Below are positions 1 to 20,322 of a stretch of DNA of 21,356 nt, piece by piece. Both the position numbers and the translations under genes were made by a program. Source of the DNA: a virus. Every line of letters starts with the position of its first letter. Within the stretch, counting starts at the first letter, position 1. The notes under the pieces were generated by a model. It saw only the letters and a list, made by a program, of their open reading frames with translations, did no database searches and was not told where the DNA came from. Where the stretch lies: positions 1-21,356 of the IMG/VR virus record IMGVR_UViG_3300030388_001615; one strand, 5' to 3'.

Positions 1-344
1 ATTAAAAAATTAGCTAACGTAGCACTTGTTGTTCCGTATTTTAATACCGTATATTCTGGCATATAAATAAAATATGCTGTAGCATCTGGTACTCCAGTTC
101 CTTGATCTGATGTTGGTCCAATAGCTAATAAAGTTAATTCTGTATCAGAATCAATAACAGTTACAAGATATTTTTGTCCTCCATTTGCTGCATTTGTTAC
201 TCTATCCCATACAATTGCATTAACAAGAACAGTTTGAGTAAAAGTTGCCGCTGCATCTGTTAATTTAAGCGTAGTAGATCCATTTGCTGTGGATGTTCCA
301 GTTTTTACAACATTAAGTTGCTTAAAGTTTATAAATTTTTCCAT
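1..344 (-). CDS. Small MEKF-type protein, C-terminus cut by the window edge (function unknown)
   Basis: The reading frame starts at ATG 344-342 and stays open to the left edge, giving at least 114 residues and no stop. The N-terminus is MEKFINFKQLNVV, matching in its first four residues the two genes just upstream. The body is Thr/Ala/Val-rich and looks beta-stranded (for example LVNAIVWDRV and QKYLVTVIDSDTEL), and no catalytic motif is visible. It follows the preceding gene by 11 bases, so it is probably translated from the same mRNA made from the promoter at 1080-1087. Its leader is not the duplicated one used by the other two. I infer a small virion protein from the context (last genes after the capsid operon). 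The function is unrecognised and the C-terminus is missing. Confidence 0.72.
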   Translation of the reverse strand, partial: MEKFINFKQLNVVKTGTSTANGSTTLKLTDAAATFTQTVLVNAIVWDRVTNAANGGQKYLVTVIDSDTELTLLAIGPTSDQGTGVPDATAYFIYMPEYTVLKYGTTSATLANFL

Positions 345-355
345 TGTTTGATTCA

Positions 356-712
356 TTATGCTATTGCAATTGCACTTAGCGGATTAACATTTAAAAAAGA
401 TCCTGCCTCTAATTGATAATTTACAGACATTCCAGACAACATTCCTTTTGGTCCGTAAGGTTCTGAAACATTTGTCCATCCTTTTGTTAAGGCTGCTACT
501 ACTGCATCCTGTACAGAAACCTGTAGTGCTGGAGCTGCTGCTGCTGATGCTGCTGGCCATGTTAACGTAATAGTTTTTCCTCCTAAATATTTGATTGAAA
601 CCGTTGTTGTTGATGGTTGACCTATACTGCTTATTCCAGTTATAGATACTAATTGTGCTTGACTATTTGTCCCATTAGCATCTAATACTGGGATACTTAA
701 AAATTTTTCCAT
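356..712 (-). CDS. Small MEKFL protein, second tandem copy (putative virion protein)
   Basis: A 118-residue protein beginning MEKFLSIPVLDANGT, rich in Ala/Ser/Thr/Val and with an alanine run near the middle. The second half contains SVQDAVVAALTKGWTNVSE, which lines up with SIIQGAMQDVLSTAWFNVAE in the neighbouring gene 744-1049. The shared pattern is roughly Q-x-A-x(4)-L-x(3)-W-x-N-V-x-E, followed by PK and S-x(3)-V. This makes the two likely diverged paralogues. The start is supported by the 40-bp leader and start region (697-736), which is identical to the one at the next gene. No membrane segment, signal peptide or enzyme motif is seen. A small abundant structural protein is an inference from position and leader, not from a recognised family. 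Confidence 0.8.
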   Translation of the reverse strand: MEKFLSIPVLDANGTNSQAQLVSITGISSIGQPSTTTVSIKYLGGKTITLTWPAASAAAAPALQVSVQDAVVAALTKGWTNVSEPYGPKGMLSGMSVNYQLEAGSFLNVNPLSAIAIA

Positions 713-736
713 AATAATAATAATTTATGTGTTAAT
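697..736 (-). repeat. 40-bp direct repeat, copy 2 (leader plus first codons of MEKFL gene)
   Basis: This 40-base block is identical to 1034-1073. On the minus strand it covers a 24-base A/T-only leader containing repeated TTA triplets, the ATG, and the codons for M-E-K-F-L. Identity stops on both sides (C versus T at the coding end, A versus G at the far end). Unlike copy 1, no TAnnTTTG box lies upstream of this copy, so only the leader and start region was duplicated, not the promoter. Confidence 0.9.
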
Positions 737-743
737 AATAATT

Positions 744-1049
744 TTAAACAGTAGTGATATCACTCACTGCATATTTTGGTGTTAATACTTCAGCTACATT
801 AAACCAAGCTGTACTCAATACATCTTGCATTGCACCTTGAATTATAGATCTAAACTGTGTTCCAGAATTTGTTCCTGAAGACGCGCCCACTGTAGCGTGA
901 GTAATGGTAGTTACTTTTCCACTACCATAAGTAATAACTGTTGATGTTGGTGCTGCTGCACCTGCGCCTACTTCAATAAGCTTAACATCTGTACAAGAGA
1001 CAATTTGTTTTCCTTCTCCGGTAACTGCAATATTTAAAAATTTTTCCAT
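744..1049 (-). CDS. Small MEKFL protein, first tandem copy (putative virion protein)
   Basis: A 101-residue protein beginning MEKFLNIAVTGEGK. It is the first gene after the terminator (1091-1118) and promoter (1080-1087), about 30 bases downstream of the -7 box, so it heads its own transcription unit. The region around residues 68-87 (SIIQGAMQDVLSTAWFNVAE) resembles the same part of gene 356-712. The rest is beta-strand-like with Thr/Val/Ala/Gly-rich stretches. The two cysteine-free MEKFL N-termini and the copied leader argue for gene duplication followed by divergence. The separate promoter and the tandem copies suggest high expression, as for a virion decoration or tail protein. That role is inferred, because I do not recognise the family. 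Confidence 0.8.
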   Translation of the reverse strand: MEKFLNIAVTGEGKQIVSCTDVKLIEVGAGAAAPTSTVITYGSGKVTTITHATVGASSGTNSGTQFRSIIQGAMQDVLSTAWFNVAEVLTPKYAVSDITTV

Positions 1050-1073
1050 AATAATAATAATTTATGTGTTAAT
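1034..1073 (-). repeat. 40-bp direct repeat, copy 1 (leader plus first codons of MEKFL gene)
   Basis: Identical over 40 bases to 697-736. Its upstream end, position 1073, lies 7 bases past the -7 promoter box (1080-1087), about where transcription would be expected to start. The repeat therefore corresponds closely to the full untranslated leader plus the start of the coding region. Confidence 0.9.
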
Positions 1074-1079
1074 GAAATA

Positions 1080-1087
1080 CAAAGATA
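1080..1087 (-). promoter_or_regulatory. Bacteroidota-type -7 promoter box (TATCTTTG)
   Basis: On the minus strand this reads TATCTTTG followed by TATTTC, matching the Bacteroidota -7 consensus TAnnTTTG. It sits between the terminator at 1091-1118 and the MEKFL gene that starts at 1049. This is the expected place for a fresh promoter. The same extended form TAnnTTTGTATT occurs at 11739-11746 and 18063-18070. No TTG element is visible about 20 bases upstream. Confidence 0.65.
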
Positions 1088-1090
1088 ACA

Positions 1091-1118
1091 AAAAAAAAGC
1101 CACCCTTTTAAGGTGGCT
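1091..1118 (-). terminator. Rho-independent terminator after the 255-aa gene
   Basis: AGCCACC (1098-1104) pairs with GGTGGCT (1112-1118), a 7-bp GC-rich stem that can extend to 9 bp with a bulged C. On the minus strand it is followed directly by eight T residues (the complement of A 1091-1098). It lies between the stop of the gene at 1140-1907 and the promoter of the MEKFL genes, so it isolates the two units. Confidence 0.88.
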
Positions 1119-18486: not shown

Positions 18487-18741
18487 TTATTTCTTAGATT
18501 TTTTACCAGAACATTTCCATCTCTTACGAGATAAATTATTAGGGGTGTTGGGATCGTTTTGTTTTTTCTTAGACAGTCTTCTTTTTATTCCAAAACTTCT
18601 GGCACAATAACTATCCCCTTTGGTAGTCCCAGGTTTTACTCTTGGGCCACCACCAGAAGCCTGACCTGCTTGACCATAACTAACTTTCTTTCCAGAAGAA
18701 GTTACTTTAACTTTTGCTTTTCCAGCTCTTGGTTTTGCCAT
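18487..18741 (-). CDS. Small basic protein with paired cysteines (84 aa)
   Basis: An 84-residue, very Lys/Arg-rich protein. The first 40 residues are Gly/Lys/Ser-rich and probably unstructured (AKPRAGKAKVKVTSSGKKVS). The second half has GDSYCARSFGIKRRLSKKKQ and then NDPNTPNNLSRKRWKCSGKK. The two cysteines, roughly 30 residues apart with the intervening conserved-looking NDPNTPNNLSRKRW, suggest a small folded unit. I have the impression of seeing this pattern in marine phage genomes, without an assigned role. It overlaps the upstream gene by one base (TAATG), so the two are coupled. No membrane segment is present. Nucleic-acid binding is possible from composition alone. Confidence 0.82.
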   Translation of the reverse strand: MAKPRAGKAKVKVTSSGKKVSYGQAGQASGGGPRVKPGTTKGDSYCARSFGIKRRLSKKKQNDPNTPNNLSRKRWKCSGKKSKK

Positions 18742-19076
18742 TATGATTTATAATTTCTTTGAAATTTTTTAATTTCTCTTTTTGATTTTCTATGACCAAA
18801 GGAATTTCTCGTTCCATCTGGTGCTACTACAACTCTTTCACCATTTTTTTTAGTTTCTGTAACTAAAAAATTTGTTTTACCCTTTGGTTTTTTATTAGTC
18901 TTTGTAGAAACTTTTTGAGTTCTTTTACGTGTTACATTATTCAGAACATCAGAATTAGATTTTGTTTTAACCTTTTTATTTTTTGAGGTCTTAAGCGTTT
19001 TTATTTTTACTGTATGAGGTTGTGACTTTGATTTACAATACGCTAATGCTTTTCCTTTTAATCCTTTGCAACTCAT
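18741..19076 (-). CDS. Small basic protein with CKGLKG N-terminus (111 aa)
   Basis: A 111-residue protein that opens MSCKGLKGKALAYCKSKS, almost the same N-terminal motif as the 147-aa protein at 19879-20322 (MSCKGLKGRELRACKIKAG). Pattern: M-S-C-K-G-L-K-G-x(2)-L-x(2)-C-K, two cysteines 11 residues apart. The rest is Lys/Thr/Asn-rich low complexity (IKTLKTSKNKKVKTKSNSD), followed by a more ordered KTNFLVTETKKNGERVVVAP and DGTRNSFGHRKSKREIKKFQ. No enzyme motif or membrane segment is seen. It overlaps the next gene by one base. Function unknown; a cationic nucleic-acid or wall-associated role is only suggested by charge. Confidence 0.82.
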   Translation of the reverse strand: MSCKGLKGKALAYCKSKSQPHTVKIKTLKTSKNKKVKTKSNSDVLNNVTRKRTQKVSTKTNKKPKGKTNFLVTETKKNGERVVVAPDGTRNSFGHRKSKREIKKFQRNYKS

Positions 19077-19878: not shown

Positions 19879-20322
19879 TTATTTTTTATTTTTTTTATTT
19901 TTTTTATTTAAACTCATAAGATACTCTTCTCTTTTATTAAATTGAGTTTTAGCCAAAGGCTTAGAGCTTCTTACTTTATTCTTAGCATTATATATTTTGG
20001 TGTGGTTGTAAAGTTTAGTCAACGCTTTCTTTTGAGATGAAGTTCTTTGAGTTGGTCTACCTGAACTATTTTTTTTATCTTGTTTTTTCTCAAGTTTTTT
20101 CATTCCTTTCCAACCCTCAAAGTTGTTTTCTTTTGCAAACTTTTTACCTCTTGCCTTTCCTTCAGGTGATCTGTCTATATATTTCATCCCTGCTATTGAG
20201 TTCTTCTTTGAAGGTACACTGTTCTTAAAAATTCTATCTGTTTTAAGAGAATCTCTTTTAACTTTTCCAGCTTTTATTTTACAAGCGCGCAACTCTCTGC
20301 CTTTTAATCCTTTACAACTCAT
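19879..20322 (-). CDS. Small basic protein with CKGLKG N-terminus (147 aa)
   Basis: A 147-residue protein opening MSCKGLKGRELRACKIKAG, the same double-cysteine motif that starts the 111-aa protein at 18741-19076. The bodies differ. This one contains GMKYIDRSPEGKARGKKFAK, then ENNFEGWKGMKKLEKKQ, a Ser/Thr-rich linker, and ALTKLYNHTKIYNAKNKVR. It ends in a run of lysine and asparagine. Composition is strongly basic throughout. The gene follows the 39-aa gene by 4 bases. The shared N-terminus on unrelated bodies suggests a reusable module such as a localisation, packaging or metal-binding tag. This is inference, and no known family is recognised. Confidence 0.82.
   Translation of the reverse strand: MSCKGLKGRELRACKIKAGKVKRDSLKTDRIFKNSVPSKKNSIAGMKYIDRSPEGKARGKKFAKENNFEGWKGMKKLEKKQDKKNSSGRPTQRTSSQKKALTKLYNHTKIYNAKNKVRSSKPLAKTQFNKREEYLMSLNKKNKKNKK

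Follow-up and report, generated by a model that had tools for sequence, protein, structure and literature searches.

A repeated block before two tandem genes

Two neighbouring phage genes have diverged strongly and are preceded by one and the same untranslated sequence. What is this leader for, and what has kept its two copies alike? The locus lies in an IMG/VR virus record, IMGVR_UViG_3300030388_001615, which was analysed whole (positions 1 to 21,356; 21,356 bases, here called the window). The window carries terminase, portal and capsid-type genes. Its terminase and capsid proteins match those of cultured relatives, phages of Flavobacterium, Cellulophaga, Maribacter and Tenacibaculum, and from these relatives the host is predicted to belong to the Flavobacteriia. 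On the minus strand the order is a capsid-type gene, a 255-aa gene, then A, B and the start of C. The features are as follows.

1098–1118, minus strand: intrinsic terminator hairpin of the upstream gene; its T run abuts the A promoter
1080–1087, minus strand: predicted -7 promoter box of A, TATCTTTG; no counterpart before B
1050–1073, minus strand: leader of A, the 24 nt that precede the start codon
1034–1049, minus strand: start of the A coding region, 16 nt identical to B (MEKFL); similarity at the protein level, codon choice not co-varying
744–1049, minus strand: gene A, 101 aa, MEKFLNIAVTGEG...; predicted to open the transcript; assigned to no known family
713–736, minus strand: leader of B, same sequence as the leader of A
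697–712, minus strand: start of the B coding region, 16 identical nt (MEKFL)
356–712, minus strand: gene B, 118 aa, MEKFLSIPVLDANG...; paralogue of A
1–356, minus strand: gene C, 5' part, cut by the window end; full-length in the relative L003

The repeat spans 697–736 and 1034–1073 (minus strand) and is exact over 40 nt, of which 24 nt are leader and 16 nt, or five codons plus one base, are coding. With up to three mismatches allowed, these are its only two matches in the window (0.00 expected in 100 shuffles), so chance does not account for it. The original prediction had described this identity correctly, as it had the strong divergence beyond the block, where about 36% of residues agree between A and B. 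Its description of the leader as composed of A and T alone was wrong: the sequence contains two C and no G. The leader and start hardly fold (-0.8 kcal/mol, a value equalled or bettered by 198 of 200 shuffles). Adenine stands at -3, -6, -12 and -13, the four positions at which it correlates with, and by mutation raises, translation in F. johnsoniae as reported in PMC6847099.

Other gene starts in this region show different arrangements. The B stop and C start overlap as TAATG (342–358, minus strand), and C may be translated by coupling to B. The sequence before C is not a copy of the A/B leader. A second in-frame ATG at 344, 12 nt further on, would give MEKFINFK and so restore a MEKF start. 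In one clade (L013, L020, L022 and L023) a fourth MEKF gene, D (92 aa, MEKFIKV...), follows C; its A-rich leader differs from that of A and B. Elsewhere in the window, two small K/R-rich proteins both start with MSCKGLKG (18741–19076 and 19879–20322, minus strand). As a contrast of paralogous starts, this pair differs from A and B in that its leaders are not copied.

One promoter and one message

The box TATCTTTG at 1087–1080 follows directly on the terminator hairpin of the upstream gene. By sequence alone such boxes are unremarkable, the window containing 32 occurrences of TANNTTTG where 34.8 are expected; it is their position before A that is conserved. A relaxed form, T(A/T)NNTTT(G/A), precedes the gene in 48 of 48 distinct A relatives and the strict TANNTTTG in 42 of these, whereas a -7 box is found in none of 34 distinct B upstream regions. 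The leader lies downstream of a -7 box before A only, as predicted. The idea that each copy is part of a promoter, and that B has its own transcription start, could appeal to the AT-richness of the block and its repetition at two gene starts; against this asymmetry of the box it is very improbable.

The leader core begins 6 nt past the box in 31 of the 48 A relatives and 7 nt past it in 11. The window has the 6-nt spacing, and transcription in F. johnsoniae starts mostly 4 or 5 nt past the -7 box in the data of PMC6847099, so that the block should begin about 1–2 nt inside the predicted mRNA. The end of the block had been equated with the transcription start; it lies close to it, with the predicted start 1–2 nt ahead. 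Since B has no box and no terminator-like site is listed between A and B on the minus strand of the window, B is probably read from the A message. Alternatively, RNA processing at the B leader might leave B with the 5' end that A has, a suggestion in keeping with the start of the matched part near the predicted start site of A. Processing leaves unexplained why phages with A alone also conserve the leader, and we regard it as improbable.

Age of the gene pair

Related loci were gathered from IMG/VR by searches with A, an alignment of A, two divergent A proteins and an alignment of B. They yielded 105 distinct pairs of tandem genes, with starts of the form M-x-K-F/Y, which form 69 clusters when the first genes are grouped at 90% identity. 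These clusters include B-C and C-D pairs; 34 are of the A-B type. Removal of four with a different second gene, one with a truncated B and three with a short gap leaves the main set of 26 lineages. An earlier set of 86 loci contained 58 with the pair and 26 with A and no such neighbour. Four phages without B (L118, L121, L136 and L137) have the same leader before A. Many records have A without B (for example L030, L085 and L105), with a leader that is related and different (TTATTAACCCATTAAT...ACAA).

The A and B families are homologous (profile–profile probability 99.5, E 6e-23). Protein identity between A and B is 0.36 within genomes and 0.36 between them, below that among A proteins (0.55) or among B proteins (0.54). 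The pair is therefore old, and not a fresh duplication. A recent duplication, with the block as the part that has not yet diverged, would have explained the exact 40-nt identity in the window; it is refuted by the separate orthologous families A and B in 26 lineages and sits badly with the existence of several lineage-specific leader versions, so that it retains next to no likelihood.

Phages with these genes are known mostly from environmental DNA. Among 50,697 phage records there is no cultured relative of A, B or C, and the species genomes of the GTDB contigs contain no relative of A. The window proteins A and B match no PHROG or Pfam family, and their relatives give weak PHROG hits only. 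Predicted models of A and B are fair (pLDDT 85.8 and 78.9, respectively). The A model finds no PDB fold below E 1, and in BFVD it finds close viral models without useful names. The one role suggested, in the virion, is no more than a guess based on their place downstream of a capsid gene.

Leaders matched within genomes

In 10 of the 26 lineages the A and B leaders agree without a mismatch for at least 24 nt. These lineages carry five different versions, each doubled within its own genome: the TTAACTCAT type, the TTAACACAT type, a form with an extra A, a form ending in TTTTTATT, and the form TTAACCTTAATCACATTATTTATT of L025, which is far from the others and identical at 27 of 27 positions. When A and B leaders are taken from different genomes, 24-nt identity is found in 61 of 650 combinations. 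Over positions -25 to -4, leader similarity is 0.827 within genomes and 0.676 between them (permutation P 5e-5); a first set of 22 lineages had given P 1e-5 for the within-genome excess.

Shared descent was taken into account by simulations in which the two leaders evolved independently, at three rates, along the protein tree, which has many weak inner branches. The 26 lineages have 4.42 mismatched leader columns within genomes and 7.10 between them, a difference reached in 0 of 1000 simulations at each rate; its size is inflated, as columns are treated as independent and an indel is counted several times. The result of 0 of 1000 persists when the five most deviant lineages are left out (4.00 versus 5.33 in the remaining 21) and when three short-gap lineages are added (6.17 versus 8.67 in 29). 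Presence of the TTTTTATT ending agrees between A and B in 26 of 26 lineages and the base at -6 in 24 of 26, single characters that each offer only one or two supported independent contrasts, too few for significance alone.

Both leaders extend to the ATG in all 26 lineages, and G is absent from 26 of 26 A leaders and 24 of 26 B leaders. Adenine occupies -3 in 26 A and 25 B leaders, -6 in 19 and 17, -12 in 19 and 20, and -13 in 18 and 22, respectively. In L205, where B starts 12 nt after A and its leader overlaps the last A codons, the final 17 nt of the B leader still copy the version of the A leader in that genome.

Matching is a tendency and not a rule. The two leaders differ somewhere in their last 24 nt in 16 of the 26 lineages, and a 2-nt insertion arose about three times in the A leader and never in that of B. 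In L063, L064 and L026 the B start lies 3 to 11 nt after A and the B leader is gone or eroded, so B does not always need it. Relatives in which the leaders differ freely while the genes remain close, the pattern that would have spoken against the original prediction, were not found; the exactness seen in the window is relaxed in these 16 lineages and lost in the three others.

Limits of the matching

The within-genome excess occupies about -25 to -6 (profile of the first set of 22 lineages) and is confined to the leader. Synonymous choice at codons 2–9, compared where the amino acid is shared, is no more alike within genomes (0.604) than between them (0.599; P 0.43) in the 26 lineages, nor in the 10 with exact leaders (0.587 versus 0.594). 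The upstream flank at -57 to -30 has no excess either (0.286 versus 0.279, P 0.34). The copied unit had been taken to be the leader plus five codons; the matched unit is the leader alone, and the first codons resemble each other owing to the shared protein start MEKFL.

As a control we used gene E, which is preceded by a -7 box of its own and was available for 21 of the 26 genomes. Over the 15 nt before the ATG, mean pairwise identity is 0.79 for A and 0.78 for B, compared with 0.54 for E (21 genomes). A and E leaders have no within-genome excess in these 21 genomes. The same holds for A-C and B-C starts (C in 24 of 26 genomes), and B and E leaders have a weak excess of 0.027 (P 0.016, uncorrected), or 0.016 over 24 nt (P 0.05, uncorrected). 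A host-wide initiation preference, considered as the cause of the matching, was rejected on these comparisons, in which A does not co-vary with E or C, and B co-varies with E only weakly.

The leader has 48 exact matches in 38 IMG/VR stretches, and every one of them precedes A or B. Five genomes were also scanned (the window and four records of 50–67 kb, some of them incomplete), and no other start scored clearly above its shuffled counterparts; the leader as a genome-wide regulon is not supported in these five. Part of the leader lies outside the known determinants of initiation: a TTAAC-N-CAT element at about -23 to -15 is conserved, and some A-only phages have it too.

Possible causes of the matching

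The observations to be explained are the identity of the leaders, the age of the pair, the co-variation and its limits, its privacy to A and B, and the asymmetry of the promoter. We favour, with moderate confidence, the view that the block is a strong initiation leader for Bacteroidia, duplicated together with its gene and kept matched, most likely by selection specific to A and B. The proposed course is this. (i) B would have arisen by tandem duplication of A with its leader, before the 26 sampled lineages split. (ii) The proteins would then have diverged, while the two leaders tended to stay matched in each lineage, changing together. (iii) Gene A would be transcribed from its own -7-box promoter and B from the same mRNA. 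(iv) The leader would act as a nearly G-free, unstructured initiation region that dispenses with Shine–Dalgarno (SD) pairing and presents adenines at -3, -6, -12 and -13. (v) Initiation on this one message would thereby probably be strong for both A and B, with matched rates. The claim of a strong SD-less initiator gains from conservation beyond that of the gene E control and from the favourable adenines, and a function in initiation is what these features suggest. Confinement of the matching to the leader and to the A/B pair points to selection on the pair, most likely because the outputs of A and B have to match or because one partner has to recognise both leaders. Brief conversion tracts, kept within the leader by selection at its edges, would perhaps add to this selection.

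Purifying selection and gene conversion had both been offered for the exact preservation. Plain conversion, in which short homology between the two starts allows one leader to be overwritten with the other by phage recombination and no selection for matching is needed, is a tentative but serious contender. Up to about 40 nt of near-identity could serve as a template, and many sites change together in one lineage, as in L025, where identity at so many sites is easiest to see as copying. Conversion of the leader together with the gene start is not what the relatives look like, as codons 2–9 lack an excess both in all 26 lineages and in the 10 with exact leaders, and tracts would need to end near the start codon again and again. 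A different cause would be translational control: both leaders might be operators that bind one factor (a phage RNA-binding protein, or a small or antisense RNA), and if this partner set the A:B ratio and co-evolved in each lineage, each would acquire its own matched version. Such an operator would account for co-variation that stays within the leader, concerns A and B only and is hardly seen at other starts, and for a conserved TTAAC-N-CAT outside the known initiation determinants, present also in some A-only phages; by analogy, the ESAS repeats of Cluster K mycobacteriophages, which come in subcluster-specific versions, may follow a factor likewise. The leader is unstructured and the window has no Rfam match, and we consider an operator rather unlikely. 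Selection on the A/B pair is the reading carried forward here.

Relation to known systems and significance

In concerted evolution by gene conversion, paralogue copies are more alike within genomes than between them. The A/B leaders follow this pattern in being closer within than between genomes, in the leader only. They depart from it in that the coding parts take no part and neighbouring synonymous codons have no excess.

Repeats directly before phage start codons, with a proposed role in translation initiation, are known from Cluster K mycobacteriophages (PMC3203893). The SAS described there is a 13-bp GGGATAGGAGCCC with an SD core, present in 11–19 copies per genome before different gene families; the ESAS consists of 17-bp imperfect inverted repeats in subcluster-specific versions that are common to the copies of a genome. 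Position and proposed role are shared with the A/B leader, as are, for ESAS, lineage-specific versions common to the copies in one genome. The differences from SAS and ESAS, as described in PMC3203893, are considerable. The A/B leader is nearly G-free, measures 24–27 nt, lacks the 13-bp GGGATAGGAGCCC with its SD core, and is present in two copies, both before paralogues. It is without inverted repeats, none of the 17-bp imperfect type being found at the window leaders. The A/B leader may thus work like SAS and ESAS, yet it is no member of either, differing in sequence, copy number and spread over genes.

Closer to the predicted host, the initiation regions of F. johnsoniae, which are Kozak-like in the account of PMC6847099, share with the A/B leader their adenines, the lack of an SD sequence and the scarcity of structure (for structure, the window only). 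They also share a TANNTTTG promoter (-7), here before A and of the form expected for sigma-ABfr, and a leadered mRNA, here predicted. The preferences described in PMC6847099 concern positions over many genes, unlike the one long sequence fixed here before two genes only.

Our search of the open-licence PMC literature turned up no description of paralogous phage genes with matched leaders. It is unusual for co-variation to be limited to untranslated sequence, and this separates selection on the leader from constraint at the protein level. Five exact matched versions, with changed genes behind them, amount to a natural experiment on initiation without SD pairing. Such natural variants could be used as they stand to find the leader positions that count in Bacteroidia, and to ask whether phages adjust the ratio between two proteins through matched leaders. 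For flavobacterial genetics, the leader could also be a source of initiation parts that are both compact and strong.
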